NCBI RefSeq assembly: GCF_018127805.1 | Contig: NZ_CP072334.1 | Span: forward strand, 248,001 to 312,000 | DNA length: 64,000 bases | Reading direction: 5' to 3' | DNA from: Prevotella sp. oral taxon 475 | GTDB lineage: Bacteria > Bacteroidota > Bacteroidia > Bacteroidales > Bacteroidaceae | Shown: one piece after another, positions 19,826 to 56,140 of the stretch | Position numbering within the stretch: the stretch's first letter is position 1 | How the letters are laid out: every line of letters begins with the position of its first letter | The notes under the pieces: model-generated | The model's input: the letters and a program-made list of their open reading frames with translations, nothing else | Databases searched by the model: none | Told to the model about the DNA's origin: nothing | Made by a program: the position numbers and the translations under genes

Positions 19826-19925
19826 CTCTTAGCTTTTGGCGTGCAAAAGCTAAGAGAACGCCAGTCAAAAGCTAAGGAAACGCAGGGCGAAAGCTTAGCT
19901 TTTGCAACGCAGTTTTCTAACAGGC
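19826..19925. repeat. 22-bp CTTAGCTTTTG array, copy 1 (mixed orientation)
   Basis: Four to five units of the 22-bp family lie here with alternating orientation. The first pair forms a 13-bp perfect hairpin: CTCTTAGCTTTTG (19826-19838), loop GCGTG, CAAAAGCTAAGAG (19844-19856). The tail TTTTCTAACAGGCTGATGATGAG resembles the tails of the other arrays. Apart from the terminator at 19624, the rest of the ackA-rnr gap shows nothing else. Confidence 0.85.
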
Positions 19926-20001
19926 TGATGATGAGCGAGATAGAAAGACGTTTGAGGGGCGATCTTTACCTGTTTTACTGAGAAAGCAGAGGCCTTCGGA
20001 A

Positions 20002-22197
20002 TCAAGGAGCAACGGTAAAGTCGAGCTGCTTTTTCTCGAGGTTGGCGCGTGCCACTTGGATGCGGATCGGGTCGCCCAGTTGGTATTTTTTGTGACGTCT
20101 GCGACCCACGAGGCAATAGTTTTTCTCGTCGAAGTCGTAGTAGTCGTCATCCAAATCGCGCATGGGCACCATCCCTTCGCAGTGGTTTTCGTCGATTTCG
20201 CAGTAGATGCCATAGCTGGCAATGCCGCTGATGTGAGCGTCATAGACCTCGCCCAGATGCTCGCCCATCAACTCCACCATCTTATATTTAATCGAGTCGC
20301 GTTCTGCATTCTGGGCAATCTGTTCCATATCCGAGGCATGTTGGCACAGTTCTTCGTAGTGTTCTTTGTTGGCACTGCGACCACCTGCGGCGTAACGGGT
20401 GAGCAGGCGGTGCACCATTGTGTCGGGATAGCGACGGATGGGACTGGTGAAATGCGTGTAATAGTCGAACGCCAGTCCGAAATGCCCGATGTTATGGATG
20501 CTGTACCGAGCCTTCATCATGGCGCGTAGAGCCACCGTCTGGATCACATTTTGCTCGCGTTTGCCCTCCACATCGTCCATGAGTTTGTTGAGCGAGCGGG
20601 CCGTTTCGCCTTTCGTTCCGGCCGTTTTGAGTTTATAACCGAACTTCACGATAAACTCTCTCAGCGTTTCCAGCTTCTGCGGGTCGGGATTGTCGTGGAT
20701 GCGATAAGGCAAAGTTTTGGCCGACTGCCCTCTCTTCGTCTTACCGATGCTCTCGGCCACCGTTTTATTGGCCAGCAACATAAACTCCTCGATCAGTTTG
20801 TTGGCATCTTTAGAGCGTTTGAAATAAGCACGGATAGGCTTTCCCTTGTCGTCGATATCGAAGTGGAGCTCCTCCCGATCGAACTTCACCGCTCCGTTTT
20901 TGAACCGCTTTTCGCGCAACTGTTTGGCCAATCGGTCAAGCATTATCAGGTTCTCGGCATTCTCACCTCTATATCCACCCTTCGGCGCAGGCGGTGCAGG
21001 AGTACCCGTTCCGTCGACAACGCCATTGTCTTCCAGCAGCTGTTGCATCTCCTCATAGGCATAACGGCGATCGCTCCGGATAACGGTATGCACGATGCGG
21101 AAGGCCTTGATGTCGGCATTTTCGTCCATATTGAAGATGACACTGTAGGCCAACTTCTCTTCATTAGGCCTGAGCGAACAGATGAAATTACAGAGACGCT
21201 CGGGCAGCATCGGGATGGTTCGGTCGACCAAATAGACACTTGTGGCGCGCTTCACGGCCTCTTTGTCGATGATACTGCCCTCGGTGACGTAATGACTCAC
21301 GTCTGCAATGTGTACGCCCACCTGCCAAAGGCCCTTGTCGAGTTGGCGGATGGAGAGCGCATCGTCGAAGTCTTTGGCATCCTTAGGGTCGATGGTGCAA
21401 GTAAAAACCTCGCGAAAGTCTTCGCGCTCGGCCAAGTCTTGCTCGGTGATGTCGCCCGAAATCTTCTCCGCGGCCTCTTCAACGGCTTTTGGATAAGTGT
21501 AAGGCAAGCCGTATTGGGCCAGAATGGTGTTCATCTCCACATCGTTATCGCCTGTCGGTCCCAGCACATCTACCACCTCGCCAAGCAGGTTTTTGTGGTC
21601 GGCATCGGGCCATTGGGTAATTTTCACCACGGCTTTGTCGCCCGATTGGCCGCCTTTGAGTCGGCGTTTAGGGATGATGATGTCGTGCACATAGAGGCTT
21701 TCGGGCGTCACGAGGAAGGCCATATCGCGTTCCACCCGCAACCGTCCTACCACTTGATCCTTAGCGCGCTGAAGGATCTCGATGACCTGTGCCTCCTTCA
21801 TGTGTCGCTGTCGACGGGCCAGAAGCTGCACCCGCACGCGGTCGCCGTTGAGTGCCCAGGCCGAATTACGTTCGCTCACGAAGACGGGCGTAGAGCCATC
21901 GTCGGGCAGGAACGAGTTTTTGCCGTTGGCTTTCCTCACAAAACGCCCCTCGAGCACCTGGCTCATCTGGTTGAGACGATAGGAACTGTCGCTGACCTTG
22001 GTCAAGAAATCGTCCCAGGCCATCTCTTCCATCACATCGATGGCCAGCATTTTGAGCGGATGCGTATCGAACTTGAGTTGCTTAAAAATCTCTTTGAAGC
22101 TGAATGTCTTTCCCGGCTGCGTGCTGAAGAAGTCGTGCAGGCGTTCTGCCACCTGTCGCTTCGTCATCCGCTTGCCGCCTTTTTTACCTTTTGCCAT
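20002..22197 (-). CDS. rnr: Ribonuclease R
   Basis: RNase R is a processive 3'-5' exoribonuclease that degrades structured RNA. The start chosen is ATG 22197 (MAKGKKGGKRMTKRQ), giving 731 aa; an upstream start would add 32 residues without similarity. A winged-helix-like N-terminus and cold-shock OB domains precede the RNB catalytic domain with the acidic cluster DPKDAKDFDDALSI, then the HYTHFTSPIRRYPDT motif. A C-terminal S1 domain (GEVYDAHISGIASYGIYCEI) follows. The short, basic N-terminus fits RNA binding. It appears monocistronic. Confidence 0.96.
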   Translation of the reverse strand: MAKGKKGGKRMTKRQVAERLHDFFSTQPGKTFSFKEIFKQLKFDTHPLKMLAIDVMEEMAWDDFLTKVSDSSYRLNQMSQVLEGRFVRKANGKNSFLPDDGSTPVFVSERNSAWALNGDRVRVQLLARRQRHMKEAQVIEILQRAKDQVVGRLRVERDMAFLVTPESLYVHDIIIPKRRLKGGQSGDKAVVKITQWPDADHKNLLGEVVDVLGPTGDNDVEMNTILAQYGLPYTYPKAVEEAAEKISGDITEQDLAEREDFREVFTCTIDPKDAKDFDDALSIRQLDKGLWQVGVHIADVSHYVTEGSIIDKEAVKRATSVYLVDRTIPMLPERLCNFICSLRPNEEKLAYSVIFNMDENADIKAFRIVHTVIRSDRRYAYEEMQQLLEDNGVVDGTGTPAPPAPKGGYRGENAENLIMLDRLAKQLREKRFKNGAVKFDREELHFDIDDKGKPIRAYFKRSKDANKLIEEFMLLANKTVAESIGKTKRGQSAKTLPYRIHDNPDPQKLETLREFIVKFGYKLKTAGTKGETARSLNKLMDDVEGKREQNVIQTVALRAMMKARYSIHNIGHFGLAFDYYTHFTSPIRRYPDTMVHRLLTRYAAGGRSANKEHYEELCQHASDMEQIAQNAERDSIKYKMVELMGEHLGEVYDAHISGIASYGIYCEIDENHCEGMVPMRDLDDDYYDFDEKNYCLVGRRRHKKYQLGDPIRIQVARANLEKKQLDFTVAP

Positions 22198-22435
22198 AAC
22201 GTTTTTAGTTGCTAACCCGCCCACAAAAAGCCCTCTCACCCTGGCGTTTTGGTCCATAGAGACGTAGAAAGGCAACCTCGCAAGGCGAGCCATCCCAACA
22301 AGGGTAGACGTCTTTGAAGGTGGGTTGATTCTCTCGCAAAGTAACGAAAATTATGTGATAAAACCGCATCGCCCCGTGTTTAAAAAGCAAAAAGAGGCCC
22401 CTATGCGGGGTTGTGAATGGTTTGAATTAACGGAT

Positions 22436-22650
22436 TCCTCCCCTCCTTACCCCTTACTACTTCTCTCTTTACTCCCTATTACTTCCCTCCTTACTACTTA
22501 TTACTTTCCTCCTTACTACTCCTTCTCTTAGCTTTCGCATGGCATTCTCTTAGTTTTTAGCTTGCGTTTTCTTAGCTTTTGCACCTCATTTTCTTAGCTT
22601 TTGAAACTCGGCTGGTAAACGATTGATATTCAACAAGATGGAACGGCGAT
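22436..22650 (+). repeat. Pyrimidine tract plus 22-bp CTTAGCTTTTG array, copy 2
   Basis: A C/T-rich tract of words like CTCCTTACTACTTATTACTT (22436-22525) runs directly into four 22-bp units beginning at 22527, 22549, 22571 and 22593, each with CTTAGCTTTTG or a close variant and 11 variable bases. A tail like GTAAACGATTGATATTCAAC follows. After it comes a 30-codon open stretch ending in TAG at 22712 that reads like a protein C-terminus. No mraZ gene is present in this 675-bp gap. Confidence 0.85.
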
Positions 22651-22824
22651 CAAAGTCGGTGCTTTGAAGGGAGAGAAAGAAGCGTATACGCTGCGTGTGA
22701 GTTATTCTTAGGCGAGGTCAATCGAAGAAGATGGAGACGGAAAACACCGGCAGAGCGCATGCGGTTTCAGGGCATTCTGCAAGAAAATTGTGCAGAAAGG
22801 TAGGGAGCAATGGGGAAATTTGCG

Positions 22825-22832
22825 TAACTTTG
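22825..22832 (+). promoter_or_regulatory. Promoter -7 element upstream of the division/cell-wall cluster
   Basis: TAACTTTG matches TAnnTTTG, 41 bp before rsmH. No convincing -33 element is at the expected spacing. Confidence 0.4.
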
Positions 22833-22872
22833 GCGGTGGTATGTCTATAAAAAATAAGGAAAAAGAACGCCG

Positions 22873-23832
22873 ATGAACACGGAGACGACGAAGACGGCAG
22901 AGGGCTATCACGTGCCGGTGCTGCTCGGTGAGAGCGTCGACGGCCTTCATATCACCCCTGGTGGCATCTATGTAGACGTCACATTCGGCGGCGGTGGGCA
23001 TTCGCGAGAGATACTTTCGCGGATGGACAGCTCGGCGCATCTGTTCGGATTCGATCAAGATGCCGATGCTGAAAACAACCTGCAAAGACCTGGAACGGAT
23101 GGAAGTGCACCGCTGAAGGAAGACAAACGACTGACGTTTGTGCGCTCCAACTTCAGATATTTGCGCAACTGGATGCGCTATTATGGGGTGGAAGAGGTGG
23201 ACGGAGTGCTGGCAGACCTGGGTGTTTCGTCGCATCACTTCGACGATGAGACCCGCGGATTCTCTTTCCGCTTTGAGGCTCCGCTGGACATGCGCATGAA
23301 CAAACGTGCTGCCAAGACGGCGGCCGATGTGGTGAACGGATATGAGGAGGAACGTCTTTCGGATGTGTTCTACCTCTATGGAGAGCTGAAAAACGCGCGG
23401 CGACTGGCGTCTGCCTTGGTCAAAGCTCGTCAGGGGCAGCCGATCCTCACCACAACCGACCTGCTGAAGGCCGTGGAACCGCTCTTCCACCGCGAGCGGG
23501 AGAAGAAGGATATGGCCAAACTCTTTCAGGCATTACGCATCGAGGTGAACCGCGAAATGGACGCCTTGAAAGAGCTTTTGCAAGGAGCGGCGGCGTGTTT
23601 GAAGAAAGGCGGGCGCCTCTCGGTGATCACTTATCACAGCTTGGAAGACCGTATCGTGAAAAATTTCATGAAGACGGGCAATGTGGAAGGGAAGCGGCAA
23701 CAAGACTTTTTCGGACGCATCGAGACGCCTTTTGCTCTAATTAATAATAAGGTGATCGTGCCTTCGACTGCCGAACAGGAGGAAAATCCGCGCAGCCGAA
23801 GTGCTAAACTAAGAATAGCTGAAAAGAAATGA
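22873..23832 (+). CDS. rsmH: 16S rRNA (cytosine-1402-N4)-methyltransferase RsmH
   Basis: RsmH (MraW) methylates N4 of C1402 in 16S rRNA using SAM. The 319-aa protein shows HVPVLLGESVDGL, the SAM-binding VDVTFGGGGHSREIL, LADLGVSSHHFDD, and the C-terminal VITYHSLEDRIVKNF. It opens the division/cell-wall cluster and overlaps ftsL by four bases (ATGA at 23829). The usual upstream neighbour mraZ is absent. The start at 22873 (MNTETTKTAEGYHVP) fits the family length. Confidence 0.96.
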   Translation: MNTETTKTAEGYHVPVLLGESVDGLHITPGGIYVDVTFGGGGHSREILSRMDSSAHLFGFDQDADAENNLQRPGTDGSAPLKEDKRLTFVRSNFRYLRNWMRYYGVEEVDGVLADLGVSSHHFDDETRGFSFRFEAPLDMRMNKRAAKTAADVVNGYEEERLSDVFYLYGELKNARRLASALVKARQGQPILTTTDLLKAVEPLFHREREKKDMAKLFQALRIEVNREMDALKELLQGAAACLKKGGRLSVITYHSLEDRIVKNFMKTGNVEGKRQQDFFGRIETPFALINNKVIVPSTAEQEENPRSRSAKLRIAEKK

Positions 23833-24416
23833 GGCCACAAGAGAAGGAAGGGGATGAGACTTACCGACTGACGGTGGAGCCGATTCCGAACACGGAGATG
23901 CCCGAGAAAACCACGAACCGGGCGGCGGGTAGAACCGATTCGCCTACCGAGAAGGCTGCCGTAAAGGGCCCGAGCGGGGCAAAGACAGAACCGAAAACTG
24001 CGGCGACGCCCACGGATATGGGGGCAACAGAAAAGCCTACGCTTAAAGAAATTATCTTAGAACAGGCCACGGAAGACGAGGCTCCGCTCAATCCTTCGCG
24101 CACATTGCGCAAGATTCTGGGCGGCGACATCCTCAATACCTCTACCATCCGGCGGCAGATTTGGCTCTTTATGCTCATCACGCTCTTCTTGTTCGTCTAT
24201 ATCTCCAATCGCTACAGTTGCCAAAAACATTTGATAGAAATCGACCAACTGACGAAAGAATTGCAGGACGTGAAGTATAAATCGCTCTCGAGCAATAGTC
24301 AGTTTACCGAAAAAAGCCGTGAGAGCAATGTGCTCCGACTGCTGCGCAACAATAAAGACACGACGTTGCGCATGGCCGATCAGCCCCCTTATATGGTGAA
24401 TGTGCCCGAAGAATAG
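23829..24416 (+). CDS. ftsL: FtsL-like division protein
   Basis: A 195-aa single-pass membrane protein. An unusually long, charged, low-complexity cytoplasmic tail (residues 1-108, Thr/Lys/Pro/Glu-rich) precedes one membrane helix (about 110-127, IWLFMLITLFLFVYI) and a periplasmic coiled coil (HLIEIDQLTKELQDVKYKSL). Position between rsmH and ftsI and this topology identify the FtsL slot of the divisome, which recruits FtsW/FtsI. Sequence similarity of FtsL proteins is always weak, so the name rests mainly on context. Confidence 0.85.
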   Translation: MRPQEKEGDETYRLTVEPIPNTEMPEKTTNRAAGRTDSPTEKAAVKGPSGAKTEPKTAATPTDMGATEKPTLKEIILEQATEDEAPLNPSRTLRKILGGDILNTSTIRRQIWLFMLITLFLFVYISNRYSCQKHLIEIDQLTKELQDVKYKSLSSNSQFTEKSRESNVLRLLRNNKDTTLRMADQPPYMVNVPEE

Positions 24417-24500
24417 GGAGGCAAGGAGAAAGGAAGACAGGAAGGAAAGGTGGTCAGTAGGAAGAAAGAAGGAGAAGAGGAAATAAGTGGAAGAAAGAAA

Positions 24501-26666
24501 ATGAGTAAGTTCGACCATAAGAAAATCATGCCGCGCTACAGCTTTATCGCTATTCTGATGACGCTGATAGCCGTTGTCGTGATTGGCAAAACGTTGTATC
24601 TCATGACGGCCAAACGCGACTACTGGATGAATGTGGCCGCCCGACAGAAGCGAGACAGCGTGAGCGTGAAGCCCATGCGTGGCAATATTCTTAGCTGCGA
24701 CGAACAGTTGATGGCTTCGTCTCTGCCCGAATTTAAACTCTATATGGACTTCAACGCGCTGCACGAGGCCAAAAACGACTCGCTCTGGGAGGAGAAACTC
24801 GACTCGATTTGCCAGGGGTTGCATGCCATTTTCCCGGAGAAGTCGGCTGCATCGTTCAGACGTCACCTCGAAGAAGGGCGCAACCGGCAAAGCCGCCATT
24901 GGGCGTTGTGGAACAAACGGGTAGACTACAACACATATTCGGAGGTGAGGCAGTTGCCTGTTTTTAGTCTGTCGAAATATAAAAGCGGCTTCCACACCGA
25001 GGAGTTCAACGCCCGACAACGGCCGTACGGGTCGTTGGCAGGTCGCACGGTGGGCGATATGTTCGGGGCAAAAGATACGGCCCGCTGCGGATTGGAGCTG
25101 TCTTACGACTCGATTCTGAGAGGCAGCAACGGACTGATTCACCGCCGAAAGGTGCTCAACAGGTTTCTCGACATCATGGATACGCCGCCCATCGATGGGG
25201 CGGACATCGTCACCACCATCGATGTGGGCATGCAAGACCTGGCCGAACGGGCCGTTATCGAACAGTTGAAAGAAATTAACGGAAACGTGGGCGTGGCCAT
25301 CGTGATGGAGGTTTCCACGGGAGACGTGAAGGCTATTGTGAACATGCAGAAGTGTGTGGATGGCGAATACCGCGAAATCAAGAACCATGCCGTGAGCGAC
25401 TTGTTAGAGCCTGGATCGGTGTTCAAGGTGGCTTCCATCATGACGGCTTTGGACGACGGATTCGTAGACACAACTTACATGGTGAATACGGGCGGCGGAA
25501 CCTGGCCAATGTACGGACGAGAGATGCGCGACCACAACTGGCGGCGCGGCGGATATGGCGTGATTTCGCTGCCACGGACGCTGGAAGTGAGTTCTAACAT
25601 CGGGGTGAGTCGCATCATCGACCAGTTCTATCACAACGACCCGGAGAAGTTTGTGCGTGGCATTTACCGCCGAGGCTTGGCCCTGGACTTCAGAATTCCG
25701 CTCGTGGGCTCTTCCTCGGCGAAGATTCGAATGCCACGAAAGGCTCCCAACGGGCAGTGGCTCAACTGGAGCAATACGGCCCTTCCGTGGATGAGCATCG
25801 GCTATGAAACGCAGATTCCGCCCATCTCCACGCTCGCCTTTTATAACGCCATTGCCAACAACGGCTGCATGATGCGTCCGCGATTTGTGAAAAAGGTGAT
25901 GAAGAACGGCGAGACGCTCATGGAGTTTCCACCCGAGGTGATGAAAGGTTATGAGCAGATTTGCAAGCCGAAAACGCTCAAAGAGATACAGACAATCTTG
26001 GAACATGTGGTGAGTCAGGGCCTGGGAAAGAAGGCCGGTTCGGCTTCTTTCAAAGTGTCGGGAAAGACCGGTACGGCGCAGATGTCGAAGGGAGCAGCGG
26101 GATATAAGTCGGGTACGACCGACTATCTGCTCAGCTTTGCCGGTTATTTTCCTTCGGAGGCACCGCGCTATAGCTGTATCGTCTGCATACAGAAGTCGGG
26201 CTTGCCGGCTTCGGGCGGCGGGATGTGCGGTCCGGTGTTTCATCAGATAGCCGAGGGAATCATGGCCCAAAATCTGAAACTCGATGTGCGCGACGCTCGC
26301 GATTCGACTTCGATTCTCTCTCCCGAGGTGAAAAATGGCAATATCCTTGCGGCCGACTACGTGCTCACACACTTGGGTATCGGCACTCGGGCGGAGTGGA
26401 CCGGCTCGTATGCCACGGGACATCCGGTGTGGGGACGGGCAGAGCGTGCTAAGGATGAGACCGTTCTGCTGCGGCGCGCCAAGCAGTTCATCCGTTCGCA
26501 AATGCCCAATGTGGTGGGTATGGGAGCACGCGATGCGGTGTTCCTCATCGAGAGTCGTGGCGTGAAAACCCGTCTCTCGGGACGCGGAAAGGTGATGCGA
26601 CAGAGTATCGTTCCTGGAACAAAACTGAAGAAAGGTATGCGGTGCGAACTGGAATTGAGTAGTTAG
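24501..26666 (+). CDS. ftsI: Penicillin-binding protein FtsI (septal transpeptidase) with PASTA domain
   Basis: A 721-aa class B PBP that crosslinks septal peptidoglycan together with FtsW. The ATG at 24501 ([15 protein letters not shown]) is preferred: the preceding purine-rich DNA is a repeat-like gap. One N-terminal helix anchors it. The transpeptidase motifs are SVFK (in [13 protein letters not shown]), SSN ([10 protein letters not shown]) and KTG (VSGKTGTAQ). A single C-terminal PASTA-like domain ([20 protein letters not shown]) ends the protein. The 84-bp gap after ftsL is almost entirely A/G-rich. Confidence 0.95.
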
Positions 26667-26677
26667 CAGGAAAAACT

Positions 26678-26795
26678 CGTCCCCTCTCCACCTTATCAAC
26701 TCATCCCTTCATCACCTTGTCCACTGGTCAAACCGTCACCTTGTCCACTCATCCACCTTGTCACCTCGTCAACTGGTCCACTCGTCAACTAAAAA
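26678..26795 (+). repeat. GTCAACTGGTCCACT-word repeat tract between ftsI and murE
   Basis: The gap consists of near-tandem words of 9-11 bases: CACCTTGTCCACTGGTC, CACCTTGTCCACTCATC, CACCTCGTCAACTGGTC, CACTCGTCAACT. It ends a few bases before the murE ATG. It has the same words as 3205-3285, 5040-5190 and 14999-15113. Confidence 0.7.
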
Positions 26796-26802
26796 AATAA
26801 CT

Positions 26803-31437: not shown

Positions 31438-31438
31438 A

Positions 31439-34998: not shown

Positions 34999-35090
34999 CT
35001 TCTTCAGTTTGTTTTTCTGTTCCGGGTGGGAGGCAAGTCGTTTTGCCTTTGTACGGCCTTGATATTGGGCATATCCGTCTTCCGCATTCT

Positions 35091-35205
35091 CGTCTCTTAG
35101 CTTTTAGCGTGTAAAAGCTAAGAAAACGCCATGCGAAAGCTCAACTTTTGAAGCGTAAAAGCTTAGCTTTTGGAAATCGTTTTCTAAGTTACTGATTTTC
35201 AGAAG
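35091..35205. repeat. 22-bp CTTAGCTTTTG array, copy 3 (mixed orientation)
   Basis: TCTTAGCTTTTA, loop GCGTG, TAAAAGCTAAGA form a 12-bp hairpin at the left end. Further units in the opposite sense follow (AAAACGCCATGCGAAAGCT), then a forward unit GCTTAGCTTTTGG. The tail TTTTCTAAGTTACTGATTTTCAGAAGG matches other copies. The remainder of the 34999-35315 gap shows no gene I can support. Confidence 0.85.
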
Positions 35206-35315
35206 GATATGAAGAAGGCGAGCACCCCTTTCTTTCTCGAATCTCGAAAACGCTTTTCCTCCCTCTTGAGCATGCTTTCCAAAGGTCTTTTCTTGGACAC
35301 CCCTCTGTCGGAGGG

Positions 35316-40161: not shown

Positions 40162-40490
40162 TTTAAGCAGGGTGAGCGCGCTTCGCTTGCCAGCCCTGCT
40201 TGACCCACAACCCCATCTTGATAGGCTTGTTGGTCGTCTGAATGAATACGCCTTTTCTTCTCTTTCTCCTCATTGCTTTCTTCCTTCCTACTTACTACTC
40301 CCCTCCTTACTCCTTCCTACTTTTCTCCTTCCTACTTATTACTTCCCTTCTTCCTACTCCTTCTCTTAGCTTTTGAAGTCCATTTTCTTAGCTTTTGCAC
40401 GTCGTTTTCTTAGGTTTTGCAGCCTGTTTTCTTAGCTTTTGAAAATAAGTTTCTAAACGCCTGATTTTCAACAGGAATGAGAGGAGGAGA
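40162..40490 (+). repeat. Hairpin module, pyrimidine tract and 22-bp array, copy 4
   Basis: The gap before the pigment operon begins with a degraded hairpin module, AGCAGGG...CCCTGCT (about 40168-40203). It continues with a C/T-rich tract (40255-40362) and then four 22-bp units at 40365, 40387, 40409 and 40431, each CTTAGCTTTTG (one has CTTAGGTTTTG) plus 11 variable bases. The tail is TTTCTAAACGCCTGATTTTC AACAGG. The order matches copies 2 and 6. Confidence 0.9.
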
Positions 40491-47843: not shown

Positions 47844-47847
47844 CAAC

Positions 47848-48285
47848 ATGTTCCTGCAAGCCTCCAAAGACATAGAGATCCGCTTCAGCGAGGTCGACTC
47901 GATGAACGTCGTTTGGCACGGTTCCTATGCCCTCTACTTTGAAGATGCCCGCGAAGCCTTCGGTGCCAAGTACGGATTAGAGTATCTCACGATAGCCGAC
48001 AACGGCTATTTCGCACCGCTCGTAGAGCTCACCTTCAAGTATATACAGCCCATCGTCTACGGGATGAAGTGCCGGGTAGACATCTTCTACCGACCAACGG
48101 AGGCTGCCAAGATTGTTTTCGACTACGAGATACGCAACGTCGCCACCGACGAACTCCTCTCTACCGGTCACAGTGTGCAAGCCTTCATGAATCGGCAGTA
48201 CCAGTTGATGTGGTATCGCCCCGACTTCTACGAAGCCTGGCAGCAGCGATGGGACGTGATGAACCCCTCAACCGCCGAACCATGA
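47848..48285 (+). CDS. Acyl-CoA/ACP thioesterase (4-hydroxybenzoyl-CoA thioesterase family)
   Basis: A 145-aa hotdog thioesterase. The catalytic Asp segment is EIRFSEVDSMNVVWHGSYAL followed by YFEDAREAFGAKYGL, as in the YbgC/4HBT family. It should release or edit acyl chains from the carrier protein. It starts 4 bp after the dehydratase gene and its stop overlaps the start of the second ketosynthase gene by four bases (ATGA at 48282), so translation is coupled. Confidence 0.88.
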   Translation: MFLQASKDIEIRFSEVDSMNVVWHGSYALYFEDAREAFGAKYGLEYLTIADNGYFAPLVELTFKYIQPIVYGMKCRVDIFYRPTEAAKIVFDYEIRNVATDELLSTGHSVQAFMNRQYQLMWYRPDFYEAWQQRWDVMNPSTAEP

Positions 48286-50081
48286 TACGCTGTGTTGCCG
48301 ACAATATCTATTCGCCGCTGGGGACAACCACACTTCACAACTTCTCAGCCGTGCGTGCCGGGCACAGTGCCTTGCGGCTTTATGACGACCGTTGGGCGCT
48401 TCCCGATCCGCTGATGGCCTCCCTTTTCCCTGCGGATGCCATCGAAACGGCTTTCGCCGCGCTCTTTCCCGAGCGTGCAGATGCCTATTCCCGCTTCGAA
48501 AAGCTGGCCATTCTCTCCATTTTCGAAGCCTCACAACACACCCCCCTCTCGCTCGACAGTCAGGAAACGGTCTTCGTTCTCTCCTCCACCAAGGGGAATG
48601 TAGAACTGCTCGACCCCGACAACCAGCCCCATCTCTCGCGTCAGCGGGTGCGATTGGGACAGTCGGCCCAGGTCATTGCCCGTTTCTTCGGCAATCCCAA
48701 CACCCCCATCGTCGTCTCCAATGCCTGCATCTCGGGCGTGCACGCCCAGATTCTGGCCGCCCGACTGCTCCATACTTCCTCCTATCGGCATGCCGTGGTG
48801 TGCGGATGTGACGTGCAATCGGCCTTTATCGTCAGTGGATTTCAGTCGTTCAAAGCTCTTTCGCCGCAGCCCTGTCGGCCCTTCGACAAAGACAGATGCG
48901 GACTGAACTTAGGCGAAGCAGCCGCTACGATGATTCTCTCGCGCAGCGATGACCCTTCGACTGAAGGTTGGACGCTCTGCACCGGAGCCGTTCGCAACGA
49001 CGCCAATCACATCTCCGGTCCCTCGCGCACGGGCGAAGGCAGTTTCCGGGCTCTGCAAACCGTCTGCAACGGGCCAACAAACGAACTCGCCTTTGTCAAT
49101 GTTCACGGCACGGCCACGCCCTATAACGACGAGATGGAGTCGATAGCCCTCTCCCGGGCCGGTCTTTCCGCCGTGCCCATCACGGGTTTGAAGGGCACCT
49201 TCGGCCACACCATGGGAGCCGCCGGCGTGTTGGAAACCCTCCTTTCGTTCAGAGCCGTTGAGGCCGGCATCGTGCTTCCCACGAGAGGTTTCCGAGAGAT
49301 GGGCGTCAGCCAGCCCGTCAACATCTCGGCACAAGAAGTCCCCACCCGTAACAAAGAATTAATCAAGCTCCTCTCGGGTTTCGGTGGATGCAACGCCGCC
49401 GTTCGCTGGAGGCTGATCGAGAGCCCGACAAAGAAACAACCGACAGCAAGCGAGGCGCAGCCCTTCTCGTCCGTTCCGGATGCTCGGCGTGCGTTGATTC
49501 CCCTTCATCGGGTGCGCATCACGCCCACCGGAGCTTGGGTAGACGGCACCTCGCTGCCCGTTTCCGCCACGGGGCAGGGCCTCCTTTCCGCGCTCTATAA
49601 AGAAAAGGTGGGCAACTATCCCAAGTTTCACAAGATGGACGGCCTGAGCCAATTGGGCTTCCTCGCTGCCGAACTGCTCTTCGCGGCCGCCGAGATGACG
49701 CCGCCGGGGCACGTCTCCGAGCACACGGCCGTGGTGTTGGTGGGCCGAACAGGCTCGCTGGCTGCCGACCGCCGCTATCAAGACACGATACAACGACGGG
49801 AAGCCTACTTCCCCAGTCCGGCCGTCTTCGTCTACACCCTGCCCAACATCGTGACGGGCGAGGTGGCCATTCGTCATCGCATCTACGGCGAGACAGCGTT
49901 CTATCTCCTCGAGGAGAAGAACGAAAGTCACATTCTCCAGCTGCTCTCCACCGCCCTTTGCGATGCTGAGGCCAGCGGGGTGATGGGCGGCTGGTTGGAA
50001 TACGAGGGGGCCGAAGCCTTCGAAGCCGACCTCTGCCTCTACCGTTCGGCCTCTCCTCGCCCGGACTACAATGCCCCGTAA
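48282..50081 (+). CDS. Ketosynthase 2 fused to a KS-like C-terminal domain
   Basis: A 599-aa protein. Residues 1-385 are a FabF-type ketosynthase with Cys149 (VVSNACISGVHA), His in VNVHGTATPYND and His in LKGTFGHTMGAAG. Residues about 400-599 resemble the short Ketoacyl-synt_2 proteins found beside aryl polyene ketosynthases: YPKFHKMDGLSQLGFLAAEL, then PSPAVFVYTLPNIVTGEVAI. In relatives that domain is usually a separate gene and is thought to act as a chain-length factor. The start at 48282 fits the ATGA overlap; an upstream reading from 48069 would cross the thioesterase gene. Confidence 0.85.
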   Translation: MIRCVADNIYSPLGTTTLHNFSAVRAGHSALRLYDDRWALPDPLMASLFPADAIETAFAALFPERADAYSRFEKLAILSIFEASQHTPLSLDSQETVFVLSSTKGNVELLDPDNQPHLSRQRVRLGQSAQVIARFFGNPNTPIVVSNACISGVHAQILAARLLHTSSYRHAVVCGCDVQSAFIVSGFQSFKALSPQPCRPFDKDRCGLNLGEAAATMILSRSDDPSTEGWTLCTGAVRNDANHISGPSRTGEGSFRALQTVCNGPTNELAFVNVHGTATPYNDEMESIALSRAGLSAVPITGLKGTFGHTMGAAGVLETLLSFRAVEAGIVLPTRGFREMGVSQPVNISAQEVPTRNKELIKLLSGFGGCNAAVRWRLIESPTKKQPTASEAQPFSSVPDARRALIPLHRVRITPTGAWVDGTSLPVSATGQGLLSALYKEKVGNYPKFHKMDGLSQLGFLAAELLFAAAEMTPPGHVSEHTAVVLVGRTGSLAADRRYQDTIQRREAYFPSPAVFVYTLPNIVTGEVAIRHRIYGETAFYLLEEKNESHILQLLSTALCDAEASGVMGGWLEYEGAEAFEADLCLYRSASPRPDYNAP

Positions 50082-50129
50082 TTGGCCATCGGCCAACCCG
50101 CTCACCGTCAACGGTTTGTGCACCTCTTT

Positions 50130-50225
50130 TCCCCGGTTTTGCAAAAGCTTAGCTTTTACATCGCAAAAGCTAAGAAAACGCAAGGCGAAAGCTAAGAAAA
50201 TGCAGGCCAAAAGCTAAGAGATGGG
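50130..50225. repeat. 22-bp CTTAGCTTTTG array, copy 5, inside the polyene operon
   Basis: A forward unit AAAGCTTAGCTTTTACATCG is followed by three reverse units beginning CTAAGAAAACG, CTAAGAAAATG and CTAAGAGATGG at 22-bp spacing. The first and second units pair as a hairpin (CTTAGCTTTT / AAAAGCTAAG). It fills the only large gap between the second ketosynthase and second carrier protein genes and would be part of the operon mRNA. Confidence 0.88.
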
Positions 50226-50271
50226 AGAATGCGGAACCCAAAACAATAACGAATCAACCACAGATAAAAGA

Positions 50272-50529
50272 ATGGAAGAACTGAAAGAAACGCTCAAAAA
50301 GCAAATCATCGAGGCTTTATCGCTCGAAGAAATGACCCCTGCAGACATCGCCGACGACGGCGCTCTCTTTGGCGAGGGACTGGGACTCGACTCTATCGAC
50401 GCGCTCGAACTCATCGTTCTCATGGAGAAAAACTACGGCATCCGCCTCAACAATCCCGCAGAAGGAAAAGCCATTTTCACCTCGGTGAATTCGATGGCCG
50501 AATATATTGCCAAGCATCGCACCAAATGA
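50272..50529 (+). CDS. Acyl carrier protein 2
   Basis: An 85-aa acyl carrier protein. The start chosen is ATG 50272 (MEELKETLKKQIIE), since the preceding sequence is repeat-derived. The phosphopantetheine serine is Ser41 in EGLGLDSIDALELI. It overlaps the third ketosynthase gene by four bases (ATGA at 50526), suggesting the pair is made together. It is more diverged from FabD-type carriers than the first one. Confidence 0.94.
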   Translation: MEELKETLKKQIIEALSLEEMTPADIADDGALFGEGLGLDSIDALELIVLMEKNYGIRLNNPAEGKAIFTSVNSMAEYIAKHRTK

Positions 50530-52286
50530 TGGTCATCACAGGGGCCGGCATTGTTTCTGCCATCGGTCATAACAAGGCGCAGGTGCTCGATGCCCTCCGT
50601 GCCGGACGCAGCGGGATACGCCCCATTCGCTATCTCGACACGGTTCATCGCCACCTGCCCGTGGGCGAAGTGCAGCTCAGCAACGAGGAGATGGCGGGAC
50701 TTCTGGGCGTGGAATGCACCGAATCTACCTCGCGCACCACGCTCCTGGGGGCACTGGCTCTACGCGAAGCCGTGCAGGAAGCGGGCCTCCAGGCCGACCA
50801 ACTGCCGCAGACGGCCCTCGTCTCTGGTACCACCGTGGGCAATATGGACCGTGCCGAACGGCTCTTTCCCTCCGAAGATGCCTGCCAGGCCTTGGGCGAT
50901 TGCGGGCGCGTCACTCGGGAAATGGCCGCCATCGTGGGCGCGTTCGGCTTCACAACGACGTGCAGCACGGCTTGCTCTTCGGCTGCCAACGCCTTCATTT
51001 TGGGGGCCAATCTGCTGCGAAGCGGGCTCTACCAGCGGGTGATTGTGGGCGGAAGCGAATGCCTCTCGCGGTTCCACTTCAACGGGTTCCGCACCTTGAT
51101 GATTCTCGACGACCGTCCTTGCCGTCCTTTCGACGCCACTCGCGCCGGTTTGAACTTAGGCGAAGGCGCGGCGTTTATGGTGCTGGAGACGGCCGAAAGT
51201 GCCGCCCAGCGCGGTGCAACGCCCCTTGCCGTGCTCTCGGGATGGGGCAATGCCTGCGACGCTTTCCATCAAACGGCCTCGTCGGAGGATGGACAGGGAG
51301 CTTTCCTCTCAATGGCACAAGCCTTGAAAAGGGCGGGTGTCGCCCCGGCAGACATCGATTATGTGAATGCGCATGGTACCGGAACGCCCAACAACGACGC
51401 CAGTGAGAGCGCGGCTTTGCACCGTGTCTTTGGACAAAGTCTGCCTCTTGTCTCGTCTACCAAGTCGATGACAGGCCACACTACCAGTGCATCGGGTGGC
51501 ATCGAGATGGTGATTTGCTTGCTGGCCATGCAGCATCGGCTCGTCCCCAAGAACCTCAACTGGGCGCAACCTATGCCCGATGGCGTGCAACCGGTGACGG
51601 AAACGCTCACCGACAGACCGCTGCGCCATGTCCTTTGCAACTCGTTCGGCTTCGGCGGCAATGATACTTCGCTCCTCCTTTCGGCCTATTCGGGTGCCGA
51701 CAACAAGGAAATGTCGCCCGCTTTGCGTCCCGTCTATGTCAAATCGATGGTGACATACGCCGACATCGCTCCCGACGAGCAGCCCCGAATCCCGCCCATG
51801 GTGGCCCGACGGCTCAGCGGTGTGCTTAAGAGAGCACTGGCCACGTCGCTCTTCACGCTGCAAAAAATGGGTGTAGAACAGCCCGATGCCATCATCACCG
51901 GCACCGAAATGGGTTGTCTGCACGAAACGGAGAGTTTCCTAAAGGAAATGTGTCTGGAGGGCGAAACATGCCTCAAGCCCACCCATTTCATCCAGTCTAC
52001 CCACAACACGATCAGCAGTCTGGTGGCCATTCGCACTCATACGCACGGCTACAACAGCACTTGGTCGCACGGTAGCGACTCGTTCTTCTCGGCATTGCTC
52101 GATGCCTGGCTGCAATTGCAGCTCGGTGACATTGAGAACGCTCTGGTGGGACTACACGACGAGCGAGGCGAATGCGCCCTTTCGCTCTTCCTCGACACGC
52201 AGTTGAAGGGTGCTCTGCTGCCTCTTCGCCGCCTGGACGACCTCGAAAAGACGGTCGCCCTCTTCACCGAAAACATCCAACGCTAA
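50526..52286 (+). CDS. Ketosynthase 3 fused to a KS-like C-terminal domain
   Basis: A 586-aa protein. Residues 1-395 are a FabF-type ketosynthase with Cys150 (TCSTACSSAAN), His in VNAHGTGTPNND and His in KSMTGHTTSASGG. Residues about 400-586 form a second small domain of the Ketoacyl-synt_2 type: RRLSGVLKRALATSLFTLQK, then PTHFIQSTHNTISSLVAIRT. This is the same kind of fusion as in the gene at 48282 but with a different subtype of the extra domain. An ATG at 50529 is an equally possible start. Together the two fusions could replace the separate ketosynthase/chain-length-factor pairs of other species. Confidence 0.85.
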   Translation: MMVITGAGIVSAIGHNKAQVLDALRAGRSGIRPIRYLDTVHRHLPVGEVQLSNEEMAGLLGVECTESTSRTTLLGALALREAVQEAGLQADQLPQTALVSGTTVGNMDRAERLFPSEDACQALGDCGRVTREMAAIVGAFGFTTTCSTACSSAANAFILGANLLRSGLYQRVIVGGSECLSRFHFNGFRTLMILDDRPCRPFDATRAGLNLGEGAAFMVLETAESAAQRGATPLAVLSGWGNACDAFHQTASSEDGQGAFLSMAQALKRAGVAPADIDYVNAHGTGTPNNDASESAALHRVFGQSLPLVSSTKSMTGHTTSASGGIEMVICLLAMQHRLVPKNLNWAQPMPDGVQPVTETLTDRPLRHVLCNSFGFGGNDTSLLLSAYSGADNKEMSPALRPVYVKSMVTYADIAPDEQPRIPPMVARRLSGVLKRALATSLFTLQKMGVEQPDAIITGTEMGCLHETESFLKEMCLEGETCLKPTHFIQSTHNTISSLVAIRTHTHGYNSTWSHGSDSFFSALLDAWLQLQLGDIENALVGLHDERGECALSLFLDTQLKGALLPLRRLDDLEKTVALFTENIQR

Positions 52287-52296
52287 GGCAAAACCC

Positions 52297-52653
52297 ATGC
52301 TTCGACTCCTCCTCTTAGCCCTCCTTCAGTCGGCATTGCTGGCCGCCGGGCAGGTCACTCTTAAGATTTCGCTCCAGCAGATGGGCGCGTTTGCCTGGCG
52401 AAGCGAGTTCTTCGCCCGGGCATTCGGCAATCCCTGGTTTGCGGTCTGCGGTCTTTGCTTCGGCGTTTCGTCGCTACTGTGGATGTATATCGTCAAGCAT
52501 TTCCCGCTCAGCATGGCCTATCCGCTCATCAGTCTCAGTTATGTGATGGGCATGTTGGCCGCCGTTTTCGTCTTTCACGAACAGATTCCGGCGGTGCGTT
52601 GGGTGGGATTGGCCCTTATTATGATGGGTGTCATCCTGGTGGTGCAGCGATAA
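52297..52653 (+). CDS. Small multidrug-resistance/EamA-like membrane protein
   Basis: A 118-aa protein with four hydrophobic helices in the DMT/SMR layout, similar in kind to the ArnE/ArnF flippase subunits: MLRLLLLALLQSALLAAGQV, then FPLSMAYPLISLSYVMGMLA and a last helix GLALIMMGVILVVQ. The start at 52297 begins directly with the first helix, 10 bp after the third ketosynthase stop. A flippase role for a lipid-linked pigment or its sugar is likely by context, not shown. Confidence 0.82.
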   Translation: MLRLLLLALLQSALLAAGQVTLKISLQQMGAFAWRSEFFARAFGNPWFAVCGLCFGVSSLLWMYIVKHFPLSMAYPLISLSYVMGMLAAVFVFHEQIPAVRWVGLALIMMGVILVVQR

Positions 52654-52802
52654 TGCCGGCGCGAAAGCCTGAATCGGCAACCGAACAAGGCTTCGCTCCG
52701 GCGCGAAAGCCCAATAACGATCAAAACAAGGCTTCGCTCCGGCGCGACGAACTCAAAAAGAAGAAAACAACATTTCGCGCCGACGCGAAACCGAGAAAAT
52801 GA
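52653..52802 (+). CDS. Doubtful 49-aa basic frame linked to repeats
   Basis: ATG at 52653 overlaps the stop of the carrier gene (TAATG). The TGA at 52800 overlaps another ATG (ATGA at 52799) that is in frame with the LolA-like protein. The peptide is Lys/Arg-rich (MPARKPESATEQGFAPARKP). The DNA below it is two copies of a 42-bp direct repeat containing GGCTTCGCTCCGGCGCGA, which may explain the open frame. I consider it possible but weak. Confidence 0.25.
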   Translation: MPARKPESATEQGFAPARKPNNDQNKASLRRDELKKKKTTFRADAKPRK

Positions 52803-52830
52803 GAAAAACGAGTGTTCGCTCCCGAGCGAC
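52657..52830 (+). repeat. 42-bp direct repeats before the LolA-like gene
   Basis: GCGCGAAAGCC...AACAAGGCTTCGCTCCG occurs at 52659-52700 and again at 52701-52741, with diverged third and fourth copies (TTTCGCGCCGACGCG, TGTTCGCTCCCGAGCGACGC). The ends CGCTCCGGCGCGA and TTTCGCGCC are partly complementary. Confidence 0.7.
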
Positions 52831-52849
52831 GCTCCCTAAAGTAAGAAAA

Positions 52850-53500
52850 ATGATGAAAAAACAAATTCTCTTCCTCAGCCTTGGCTTGCTCAGTGGTCTG
52901 CTCTGGACCGCCTCTGCCACGGCACAAACAGCCGTAGACGATGCCACGGCACGGCAAATGATGGAGCAAGTGAACGATGCTGCTCGCAAGATGAAGACCC
53001 TTCAGTGCAGCTTTGTGCAAACAAAAACGCTCAAAATGATGAAGAGCAAGCTGGTGTCCAACGGTAGGATGAGCTACTCTCAACCCGCTTTGCTGCGTTG
53101 GGAGTACACCTCGCCCTATGCCTATACCTTCATTGTGAACGGTGCAAAGGTGCTCATGAAAAGTCGACAACGAAGAGATGTGGTGAACGCCGCTCAGAAT
53201 AAGGTGTTCCGAGAGATCACTAACATCATGCTCAATAGCGTTACCGGCAAGTGTCTCACCGACAAACAGAATTTCACCACTCGCATGCTGGTGAACGGAG
53301 ACAAGTGGATTGCCCGCCTCACGCCGATGAAAAAGGAGATGAAACAACTCTTCAGCACCCTCGTGATCACTTTCGACAAGCGGCAGATGGTGGCCGTTTC
53401 GGTAGAGATGATTGAGAAAAGCGGCGACAACACCCTTATTCTGTTGCGCGATGTGAAGAAAAACGCCCCCGTCGATGCCGATGAATTCAAAGTGGATTAA
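52850..53500 (+). CDS. LolA-like periplasmic lipoprotein/lipid carrier
   Basis: A protein of about 216 aa with a signal peptide (MKKQILFLSLGLLSGLLWTA, cleaved near ATAQ) and the LolA/LppX half-barrel fold: LQCSFVQTKTLKMMKSKLVS, GRMSYSQPALLRWEYTSPYA, LVITFDKRQMVAVSVEM. Aryl polyene clusters typically include a LolA-like gene, thought to carry the lipid-linked pigment across the periplasm to the outer membrane. ATGs at 52850 and 52853 are both possible; a longer start at 52799 would add a basic, repeat-encoded segment ahead of the signal peptide. Confidence 0.88.
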   Translation: MMKKQILFLSLGLLSGLLWTASATAQTAVDDATARQMMEQVNDAARKMKTLQCSFVQTKTLKMMKSKLVSNGRMSYSQPALLRWEYTSPYAYTFIVNGAKVLMKSRQRRDVVNAAQNKVFREITNIMLNSVTGKCLTDKQNFTTRMLVNGDKWIARLTPMKKEMKQLFSTLVITFDKRQMVAVSVEMIEKSGDNTLILLRDVKKNAPVDADEFKVD

Positions 53501-53897
53501 GAACCTTTGCCTGCAGATGTGCCTGTTGCTATTGGCGACAGATCTGCAAGCGCAGAGCGTGAGCCGCATGTCGGTGGAGATTTCTTTCGAAAAAGGCGGC
53601 ATCACCGGCGTTTGTCTGCTGCGCAAGGAAGAGCAGACGGTGAGTGGAACGATCATGAACGAGTTTGGCATCAAGGTGTTCGACTTCGTCTACTACCGTC
53701 AGCGGGACAAGCTCCGTTTGTTCAATGTCATCGAGATGCTCGACAAATGGTACATTCGTCGCGTCGTTCGGCGTGATCTGAAACAAGTTCTGCCCCATCT
53801 GCCGCCCGTCTCCGAGTATCGGTATGAGAACCGAAAGCGACACATCCACTATCTCTTCACCCCCTTACCCACCACAGAAGATGAAGCTACAGAATGA
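53475..53897 (+). CDS. Small exported protein of unknown function
   Basis: A 140-aa protein with a signal peptide (KNLCLQMCLLLLATDLQAQ). The mature part reads VSRMSVEISFEKGGITGVCL and has alternating strands, ending in a basic and then acidic tail. I do not recognise a family; a lipocalin-like or LolB-like small beta protein would fit the size and the position just after LolA. It overlaps the LolA-like gene by 26 bp and the next gene by 17 bp. A start at 53481 (MNSKWIK) is the alternative. Confidence 0.8.
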   Translation: MPMNSKWIKNLCLQMCLLLLATDLQAQSVSRMSVEISFEKGGITGVCLLRKEEQTVSGTIMNEFGIKVFDFVYYRQRDKLRLFNVIEMLDKWYIRRVVRRDLKQVLPHLPPVSEYRYENRKRHIHYLFTPLPTTEDEATE

Positions 53898-54249
53898 CTT
53901 TTATCGCATCGAAGCCTGCGATGCAGAAGGCGGAAGCGGCCGTTTCCGTCTTGTTTTCAATGCCAGTCACCCCATTTATCAGGCCCATTTCCCGCAAAGA
54001 CCCATCACCCCGGGCGTCTGCACGATACAAACGGTGGGCGAATTGGCCGAAATACTCGCGCAGAAACCTCTGCGACTGGTGTGTGCCAAGAACGTAAAGT
54101 TCCTCTCATTGCTTACTCCCGAGTGCACGCCGCAGGTATTTGTCGATGTGAACGTCAAGCCGGAAGCAGGCACTGAGCGGCTTTTGGTAAGAGCCGAACT
54201 GCATAACGACGGACAGACGTTTGCTAAACTCTCACTCGTCTATGTGTAA
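53881..54249 (+). CDS. Hotdog dehydratase/thioesterase of FabZ-FabA type (ApeI-like)
   Basis: A 122-aa hotdog protein. The start is ATG 53881 (MKLQNDFYRIEACD). The motif HPIYQAHFPQRPITPGVCTI contains the catalytic-type His and the HFP...PGV loop of FabZ/FabA dehydratases and ApeI proteins. This makes it the better candidate for the active dehydratase of the pathway, with the gene at 47403 lacking the usual His. It overlaps both neighbours, so it belongs to the operon. Confidence 0.82.
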   Translation: MKLQNDFYRIEACDAEGGSGRFRLVFNASHPIYQAHFPQRPITPGVCTIQTVGELAEILAQKPLRLVCAKNVKFLSLLTPECTPQVFVDVNVKPEAGTERLLVRAELHNDGQTFAKLSLVYV

Positions 54250-55702
54250 ACGGGTTTGCGTTATCATCCCCACCTACAACAACGCCCGGACATTGCGCGG
54301 CGTTGTCGAAGGTGTGCTCCGACAGACATCCAGCATCATCGTGGTGAACGACGGTTCTACCGACGACACTGCTCATGTTCTCGCCCTTTGCGATCCCTGT
54401 ATCAGCGTCGTCACCCACGAGCGAAACAAAGGCAAAGGAGCCGCCTTGGTGAGCGGATTCAAAGAGGCCGTGCGCCAGGGCTTCGACTATGCCATCACCA
54501 TCGACAGTGACGGACAGCACTTTCCTTCCGATCTGCCCCTCTTTCTCGAAGCGATCCGTCGCCATCCCGATGCCATCATCGTGGGAAATCGGTTTGCTCG
54601 CTCGGCATCGGATGACAGCAGAGCACACATGAACCCGCAAAGCAGGTTTGCCAATCGGTTCAGCAACTTTTGGTTCACCCTCCAAACCGGCGTTCGACTC
54701 TCCGATACGCAAACCGGCTATCGAGCTTATCCTCTGCACAGGCTCCGTTGGCTGCCCCTCATCACTTCGCGTTACGAAGCCGAACTCGAGCTGATGGTCT
54801 TCGCAACCTGGAACGGTGTGCGTCTCGTTTCTATCCCCATACAAGTGTATTACCCCCCACAGAACGAGCGTGTGAGCCATTTTCGGCCCACGACCGACTT
54901 CCTTCGCATCTCCCTTCTCAACACTTTTCTCTGCGGCTTGGCTCTTGTCTATGCCCTGCCGCGCAAGCTTCTCAAGGTTGTCGCCACGGTCTTGGTGTTG
55001 CTCTCGCTCTTTGTTCTGATGCTCTTCGTGCAAGCCGGACTGCTCATTTTCTTCCTTTCCCACCGAGCCACCGAGAGCCAACGCCTGGCCTATCACGGCT
55101 CTATTCAGCGCGTGAGCTCGTGGTTGCTGCGCCATCTGCCAGGAGTGAGTACCACGTTGCACAATCCTACGGGCGAAGACTTTAGTAAGCCGGGCATCAT
55201 CATTGCCAATCATCAAAGCCATCTCGACCTGCTTTGCATCATGATGCTCACTCCTCGGCTCGTCATTCTCACCAAACGCTGGGTGTGGAACAACCCTCTC
55301 TACGGCGTAGCCATCCGTTATGCCGAGTATATGCCCGTGAGCAACGACTTCGAAGAAAACGAAACACAGCTCGTCGCCCTTCTCTCGCGCGGTTATAGCG
55401 TGATGATCTTCCCCGAAGGCACCCGCTCCGCGAGTCTGTCTCTGCTTCGTTTCCATCAGGGAGCTTTCTATTTGGCGCAGAAACACGGGCTCGACCTCAT
55501 CCCCGTTTTTCTTAATGGCACAGGACAGGTGCTCAACAAGCAGGCCCGTACCCACTCTCCGGGCCACATCACTATCGAGGTGAAGCCCCGTGTGCCCGCC
55601 TCCAGTCTTCCATCCCACCTTTCTTCCGTTGCGCTTGCCCAGCATTTCCGCCGTCAGTATCAGCAGTGGAAAGACGAATATGATGCTCAAATCAGCTTTT
55701 AA
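54242..55702 (+). CDS. Glycosyltransferase family 2 and PlsC-like acyltransferase fusion
   Basis: A 486-aa bifunctional protein. Residues 1-240 are a GT2 enzyme of the dolichyl-phosphate mannose synthase type: VCVIIPTYNNARTLRGVVEG, VVNDGSTDDT, the DxD motif TIDSDGQHFPSD and DTQTGYRAYP. One hydrophobic segment (about 240-280) leads to an acyltransferase of the PlsC type: IIIANHQSHLDLLCI (HX4D), IFPEGTRSASLSLLRF, FLNGTGQVLNKQ. Similar fusions occur in polyene clusters and are thought to attach the polyene to a sugar-lipid anchor. It is the last gene of the operon; no exporter or aryl ligase gene follows. Confidence 0.85.
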   Translation: MCKRVCVIIPTYNNARTLRGVVEGVLRQTSSIIVVNDGSTDDTAHVLALCDPCISVVTHERNKGKGAALVSGFKEAVRQGFDYAITIDSDGQHFPSDLPLFLEAIRRHPDAIIVGNRFARSASDDSRAHMNPQSRFANRFSNFWFTLQTGVRLSDTQTGYRAYPLHRLRWLPLITSRYEAELELMVFATWNGVRLVSIPIQVYYPPQNERVSHFRPTTDFLRISLLNTFLCGLALVYALPRKLLKVVATVLVLLSLFVLMLFVQAGLLIFFLSHRATESQRLAYHGSIQRVSSWLLRHLPGVSTTLHNPTGEDFSKPGIIIANHQSHLDLLCIMMLTPRLVILTKRWVWNNPLYGVAIRYAEYMPVSNDFEENETQLVALLSRGYSVMIFPEGTRSASLSLLRFHQGAFYLAQKHGLDLIPVFLNGTGQVLNKQARTHSPGHITIEVKPRVPASSLPSHLSSVALAQHFRRQYQQWKDEYDAQISF

Positions 55703-55727
55703 GTGGAGCTTTACAGGTCAATAGATC

Positions 55728-55750
55728 CATCCCTTCGGGGGGTGTTTGTT
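55728..55750 (+). terminator. Weak terminator candidate after the polyene operon
   Basis: CATCCC-TTCG-GGGGTG forms a short stem with one wobble pair, followed by TTTGTT. It stands 26 bp after the last stop codon of the operon. Confidence 0.3.
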
Positions 55751-55849
55751 CCCATTACCGTGGCGATATAAGTGAATGGAGAGGCCGACGGACCAACTCC
55801 TATGAGATGGTTGATGAGTGTGGATTAACGAATGGTTTTCCTTTTACTC

Positions 55850-56140
55850 CTCATCATCCCCCCCTTTTTTCTTTACTCCTTTCCTCTTTACTCCTTATTA
55901 CTCTCCTCCTTCCTACTTACTCCTTCCCTCCTTACTACCTATTCCTTTCCCCTTTACTCCTTATTACTTCTCTCCTTACTACTTACTCCTTCCCTCCTTA
56001 CTACTCCTTCTCTTAGCTTTTGACCTGCATTTTCTTAGCTTTTGCATTCCCATCTCTTAGCTTTTGCAGTGCGTTTTCTTAGCTTTTGAAATGCGTTTAG
56101 TAATACCGTGAAAATCAGATGCTTATCGTGGACTTGGAAA
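55850..56140 (+). repeat. Pyrimidine tract plus 22-bp CTTAGCTTTTG array, copy 6
   Basis: A 150-bp C/T-rich tract (words like TTTACTCCTTATTACTTC and CTCCTTACTACTTACTCC) runs into four 22-bp units at 56012, 56034, 56056 and 56078, then the tail GTTTAGTAATACCGTGAAAATC. A degraded copy of the hairpin module (GCCAACCCTATTCTATCAACC) follows at about 56185. The rest of the 777-bp gap up to SusC has only the -7 element below. Confidence 0.9.

Follow-up and report, generated by a model that had tools for sequence, protein, structure and literature searches.

Four-unit, 22-bp-pitch intergenic arrays of a Prevotella chromosome as candidate nucleoprotein platforms akin to interspersed palindromic repeats

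What is the short repeat that recurs, in groups of constant layout, between the genes of Prevotella sp. oral taxon 475? Six such groups lie in the 64,000-nt stretch analyzed here (assembly GCF_018127805.1, contig NZ_CP072334.1, positions 248,001–312,000; hereafter the window), and an earlier note on this DNA had described them as intergenic arrays of about four units belonging to a dispersed family of an undescribed kind. We followed the family through a sample of the same genome, namely the window plus 38 stretches of 20 kb taken at even intervals (824 kb out of 2.56 Mb), and through its relatives. We propose, with about an even chance of being right, that the array is a chromosomal element resembling repetitive extragenic palindromes (REPs) and bacterial interspersed mosaic elements (BIMEs), and that in it four protein sites on duplex DNA adjoin a bend site.

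All six window arrays are present, each with four units at a pitch of exactly 22 bp (Table 1). The unit differs from the 11 fixed and 11 free bases first described: it is a 17-bp imperfect palindrome with the core CT(T/A)AG, followed by about five mostly free bases. The left half-site is of three kinds (CAAAAGCT, CGTTTTCT or CCATCTCT), the centre is T or A, and the right half is chosen among the reverse complements; a unit in which one half is CGTTTTCT or CCATCTCT is not self-complementary. The core is exact in 233/252 units, and at least one CAAAAGCT/AGCTTTTG half scores 6/8 or better in 251/252. Three window arrays (those starting at 19822, 35090 and 50142) do contain units in opposite senses and nevertheless keep the same 22-bp register; over the sample, adjacent units have the same sense in 138/189 pairs, and either sense keeps the register. 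A/T tracts recur about every 11 bp along the arrays.

The sample contains 63 arrays (0.076 per kb), from which we estimate, by extrapolation, ~196 arrays genome-wide. Genes and arrays were called with purpose-written scripts, low-complexity matches being removed before counting; the register was moved by one unit by hand in 4 of the 63 arrays, and a degenerate array (L041:10079) is included. Four units are found in 55 arrays, five in seven and three in one. No stretch with an array score was obtained in 10 shuffled sequences. Over the whole genome, the two-unit pattern with up to 3 mismatches gave 522 matches (241 forward and 281 reverse), and the same pattern read backwards gave 0 and 0; the exact 11-mer CTTAGCTTTTG occurs 141 times in the 824 kb and never outside arrays. 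Among periods 16–30, 22 stands out, with 72 matches in the DNA of this genome (at most 5 for any other period) and 70 in its relatives (at most 8). Of the 63 arrays, 62 lie entirely between called genes and one overlaps a gene by 18 bases. The window has no Rfam match at the gathering threshold, and the arrays are described nowhere in the open-access papers searched; together with the many copies, these results support the earlier view of an undescribed dispersed intergenic family.

A second component lies beside most arrays. The related tail that had been reported is found to the right of five of the six window arrays, but it is a separate element, a 39-bp palindrome of about C..TTTGTAA....TTGA...TCAA....TTACAAA..G. 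A one-sided tail could be assigned in 46/63 arrays, mostly in the array register: the best match reached at least 13/24 at 73 array sides of this genome, 44 of them exactly at the expected register. In the relatives considered below, a strong match was found at 30/56 arrays (vs 184/4000 random places), and 22 of these 30 tails were within one base of an 11-bp multiple from the expected place, where ~27% are expected by chance. By its letters, the tail resembles a doubled site for integration host factor (IHF). In a partly circular comparison with the IHF consensus, WATCAANNNNTTR, 14/46 tails matched exactly (control, 10/1909 windows) and 37/46 with at most one mismatch (control, 77/1909). The genome has 10 matches to the HU/IHF family. 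Some BIMEs carry IHF sites.

Is it the DNA or its transcript that is kept? Hairpins, emphasized in the earlier note, could stop or process transcripts, and two observations would suit such an RNA-level element: the mean folding z is about -2.8 over the 63 arrays, and the arrays lie closer to stop codons, at a median distance of 98 bp (49 genes), as compared to 220 bp for starts (69 genes; limit 700 bp). However, the same-sense arrays at 22521, 40359 and 56006 fold no better than shuffles, and convergent gaps are not enriched: among gaps of at least 140 bp, 7/39 convergent ones hold an array, as compared to 18/48 divergent and 36/155 tandem ones. We therefore consider an RNA-level function most unlikely. 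Because units flip in register and the same-sense arrays have no more RNA or cruciform structure than shuffles, the double-stranded site appears to be what is kept.

Four phased palindromic sites near genes could also be the operators of a global transcription regulator, and divergent gaps are indeed mildly enriched (18/48 vs 43/194, p 0.04). Yet the genes concerned have no common Pfam function (no family occurs in more than three of the 69 genes whose starts face arrays), convergent gaps also hold arrays, and the distances to starts are broad, which makes this explanation very improbable. Across species, none of the recurrent neighbours of arrays looks like a DNA-binding protein, as judged by eye; the largest neighbour clusters consist of rnr, the gene chosen as the centre of the loci, and of other genes from these same loci, and two clusters of four also contain a gene of the present genome. 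With respect to replication, the arrays are oriented 29 to 17 (p 0.10). Exclusion from the terminus, as expected of nucleoid occlusion, is unsupported: GC skew over the sample puts the terminus at ~1.49 Mb, and one array lies in the nearby stretch at 1.41 Mb and two in that at 1.47 Mb, though some of the array-free stretches (0.90–1.04, 1.54–1.62, 1.86, 2.11 and 2.30 Mb) adjoin it.

The same design recurs with other cores in related bacteria. By its RNase R relatives, the genome belongs to Prevotella, broadly defined, with an identity of ~81–82% to Hoylesella oralis and 86–87% to three further genomes. The relatives comprised 80 loci of named genomes with RNase R and further stretches, and the scanner was given the architecture alone, no core sequence. 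A strict scan of 100 loci gave 52 class-A arrays in 34 of them, as compared to 0–2 for each of eight alternative periods and none in shuffled sequence; the 52 are of uneven quality (L074 and L114 are weak) and count two arrays twice, since L056 and L211 are one H. oralis region. The cores found include CRAAACGnnCCGTTTYG (L062), CAAAAGACGGCCTTTTG (L084), TAAAAGGCCGCCTTTTA (L095), CAATAAGGCCGTAATTG (L075), CAAAAGCATAGCTTTTG (G039) and TTCCATCTnATCTGGAA (G248). Where one genome has several arrays, the core is mostly common to them; density reaches six arrays in 22 kb in L084. Other Prevotella-type genomes also have simple tandem repeats of 22 bp in which the spacers are conserved, at L056:6372 (H. 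oralis), L059:4707, L091:3150 and L093:4353.

A CTTAG pair with up to 2 mismatches is found in 9/100 genomes of the genus, the present one included (control: single matches in 3 genomes), with 472 matches in the present genome, 22 in G039 and 1–3 in each of the seven others; the exact pair has no match in a genome-contig database, from which near genomes may be left out, and occurs in no viral contig searched. One arm type, YRAAAG-N5-CTTTYR twice in register, occurs in 34/199 genomes of the genus, again including this one (reversed control, 0), at up to 242 places per genome, and in one viral contig; a viral origin of the arrays was considered and set aside. Its middle 5 bp often differ between genomes, and some pairs of genomes share them, in the part of the 34 genomes for which places were listed. 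Twenty other genera of the family yielded 10 candidate arrays in 0.78 Mb; these are weaker, period 21 gave 6, and at least two of the 10 (L235 and L240:3354) are plain tandem repeats.

How do arrays evolve? The loci L084 and L094, whose RNase R proteins are 88% identical, have a common gene order on one side of rnr, the 5' side being not cleanly alignable. Two intergenic places hold arrays in both; in these orthologous arrays, 108/136 unit bases and 21/35 spacer bases are identical (p 0.026). At a third place, L084 has an array and L094 has none. The commoner core, read by eye and with exceptions, is GCCGT in L084 vs GCCGC in L094, and thus seems to have shifted. In G248, among the nearest relatives, no array was found at 6 of 7 compared array places: both flanking genes are shared at three places, none with an array, and one gene is shared at four, one of which has an array, farther from the gene. 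Gain or loss must hence have affected most arrays, as would be expected of a mobile repeat too. Judged by their free positions, the arrays look old, with sites that are kept and places that come and go.

That the arrays are non-autonomous mobile repeats, related to REPs or to miniature inverted-repeat transposable elements (MITEs) and moved by a transposase in trans, is accordingly a serious, if doubtful, alternative. The different cores would be successive waves, and the sites a requirement of the transposase. Besides the gain and loss of arrays at comparable places, a second repeat family of the present genome (CGGGAG) is consistent with mobility. Its core is CGGGAGGTCACCTCCCG and its pitch also 22 bp, with ~4 to 8 or more units; further copies are at L028:9950, L029:12016, L025:19683, L047:6528 and L045:17660, and since flanks are conserved between several copies this family is younger and mobile-looking. 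Against mobility of the main family, the best pair among the 46 oriented CTTAG arrays shares 14/20 spacer bases, compared to a permuted mean maximum of 14.8 (the variance of spacer pair identity exceeds that under permutation), and ends are not conserved outside array and tail. A single pair is a clear duplication and has tail and flank in common as well; the tails and downstream DNA of L024:13384 and L044:16095 are near-identical and their spacers partly differ, and both lie beside long gene-less gaps, possibly ribosomal RNA operons to judge from masked and gene-less stretches.

A candidate transposase would be Y1_Tnp, the domain of the REP-associated tyrosine transposases (RAYTs). Two Y1_Tnp genes, resembling subclass 1.2, are present in the genome, and both have an array within ~1 kb, one of them with another core. 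As mover or as reader of the arrays, Y1_Tnp/RAYT is nevertheless disfavored: it is found in 6 of 20 other genomes, several of the 20 being incomplete, with no match in the remaining 14, nor in 7 of the 10 well-assembled ones (other transposases were not searched). Subclass 1.2 RAYTs are reported without REPs (PMC6006769). The array with another core (L031, ~8950–9130, near 1.097 Mb of the present genome, G000) stands alone, with six units of a third core, CAATAGGAC/CAAAAGGATAGC, and the common tail; its core resembles those of other species, and it is perhaps a relic. Note that both Y1_Tnp genes are flanked by dispersed ~110-bp repeats with AACCGCTACGCGGTT-like hairpins in both senses (14466–14990 of the window; L136 and L137), which may be their REP-like partners.

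Two other candidate readers seem not to fit. An octamer of the Lrp/AsnC family would fit 4 x 22 bp; its recognition helix, however, looks nearly invariant within each group while the cores differ (as seen in the 22 of 30 proteins extracted from other genomes that were in the right frame). The plasmid initiator family Rep_3 (PF01051) was not found in the present genome, and was found in 1 of 13 searched (other initiator families were not searched).

By habit (intergenic, dispersed, palindromic), REP/BIME is the nearest known kind. With their RAYTs (PMC3733652, PMC6006769; also PMC2817692), these elements are many intergenic palindromic units, grouped and in both senses, as the arrays are; REPs are given as 20–40 bp long, the array units being 17-bp near-palindromes. 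Short intergenic palindromes in high copy number and in groups are what we find (~196 extrapolated arrays, 62/63 intergenic). Unlike REP/BIME, the arrays have a usual count of four and a fixed 22-bp pitch, lack a GTAG/CGTC tag (position profile of the 46 oriented arrays), do not conserve the hairpin and have no general RAYT partner.

Nearest by host group is BrickBuilt, a MITE of Porphyromonas gingivalis. It too is an intergenic Bacteroidales element with a short tandem unit of conserved and variable parts and with leader and tail flanks (PMC4596501). Its printed consensus is a 23-nt unit, AGAYCATARTATCCTCTCRTRTG, with a core different from that of the arrays with their period of 22; it has 1 to 22.8 copies, IS5-like terminal inverted repeats and 19 elements in the reference genome, and in the same text tandem repeats of 22 nt are named for strain W83 but not described further. 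By contrast, the arrays have no conserved ends outside array and tail, and do not share their free positions.

Similar in geometry to the array are plasmid iterons (PMC4980987), which are 17–22 bp sites bound cooperatively in helical phase, with four 22-bp iterons in pPS10 and an IHF site in several plasmids. The arrays differ in being many and chromosomal, in a genome where no Rep_3 initiator was found. DNA uptake sequences of Neisseriaceae and Pasteurellaceae are likewise short and numerous, and from one species to another they vary in concert. These are single sites, unlike the intergenic groups of four described here.

The size and phasing of array plus tail (~127 bp, with A/T tracts about every 11 bp) also recall a strong DNA gyrase site of the BIME-2 kind, wrapped on GyrA. 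The E. coli work (PMC6379681) reports that some BIMEs carry gyrase sites, that BIME-2 elements are enriched for gyrase cleavage sites, and that the motif, extending from -63 to +66, has a centre flanked on both sides by DNA whose GC content varies with a period of 10.75 bp. This motif is called degenerate, though, whereas the CT(T/A)AG core is exact in most units and cores differ by species, and the array flanks the tail on one side only; we hold a gyrase site to be improbable.

Coordinates of the window features are collected in Table 1. The pyrimidine tracts noted earlier do adjoin three of the window arrays; they are TTACTACTTCCCTCC-like and lie on the side opposite the tail, and similar tracts adjoin some further arrays of the genome.

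Table 1. Arrays, tail palindromes and pyrimidine tracts of the window
Feature	Position	Strand	Tail match	Description
Array 1	19822..19904	+		four 17-bp units of mixed sense, pitch 22 bp; between ackA and rnr
Tail palindrome, array 1	19911..19949	+	16/24	one base off exact register
Array 2	22521..22603	+		four same-sense units; between rnr and rsmH
Tail palindrome, array 2	22609..22647	+	17/24	exact register
Pyrimidine tract at array 2	22430..22520	+		limits approximate
Array 3	35090..35172	+		four units, mixed sense; between CYTH-domain gene and prfB
Tail palindrome, array 3	35178..35216	+	17/24	exact register
Array 4	40359..40441	+		four same-sense units; between ROK-family gene and tyrosine ammonia-lyase gene
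Tail palindrome, array 4	40447..40485	+	15/24	exact register
Pyrimidine tract at array 4	40260..40358	+		limits approximate
Array 5	50142..50224	.		four units, mixed sense; no tail found; between ketoacyl-synthase-domain gene and acyl-carrier-domain gene, both in the same direction
Array 6	56006..56088	+		four same-sense units; upstream of SusC/RagA gene
Tail palindrome, array 6	56094..56132	+	16/24	exact register
Pyrimidine tract at array 6	55864..56005	+		limits approximate
Second-family array	14317..14421	+		five units, core CGGGAGGTCACCTCCCG, same 17+5 pitch; architecture alike, sequence unrelated

We favor a nucleoprotein platform because what is kept is the duplex site with its register, usually in groups of four, together with a bend-like palindrome in phase. 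The array would present four protein sites at a spacing of two helical turns, which would bring the bound proteins onto one face of the DNA; beside most arrays, and in phase with them, the palindrome would act as an IHF/HU-type bend site. A sequence-specific reader would contact the major groove at the core and the minor groove at the A/T tracts around it, and the four sites would be occupied together. Selection would keep the sites while the spacers drift. Reader and sites probably change together, since each genome mostly has one site sequence and other species have others. Scattered among genes of no evident common function, in REP/BIME fashion, such elements would serve chromosome organization rather than the control of single genes.

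Several points weigh against this platform. No reader protein was found, and binding, cooperativity and function are inferred from sequence. The template used for picking tails shares letters with the IHF consensus, and 17/63 arrays have no clear one-sided tail and could not be oriented. Orthology rests on two arrays in one species pair, and most of the places compared in G248 are empty. More than one core family is present both in G248 and in the present genome, and 165/199 genomes lack the arm type searched, having either other arms or no arrays.

If the platform reading is right, a very common group of gut, oral and rumen bacteria marks its chromosome with an estimated 200 standardized protein platforms. 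The form of the bound complex could then be predicted from the 22-bp register and the customary four units, and the differing cores would offer a natural experiment on how a DNA-binding protein evolves jointly with hundreds of sites. Even as mobile repeats, the arrays differ in design from REP, MITE and clustered regularly interspaced short palindromic repeat (CRISPR) elements. More tentatively, they may represent a widespread Prevotella class, perhaps reaching to the whole family, in which four one-face sites and a phased bend site are served by a reader whose specificity changes between species, with hundreds of sites following, a bacterial counterpart of PRDM9 or of the dialect problem of DNA uptake sequences.

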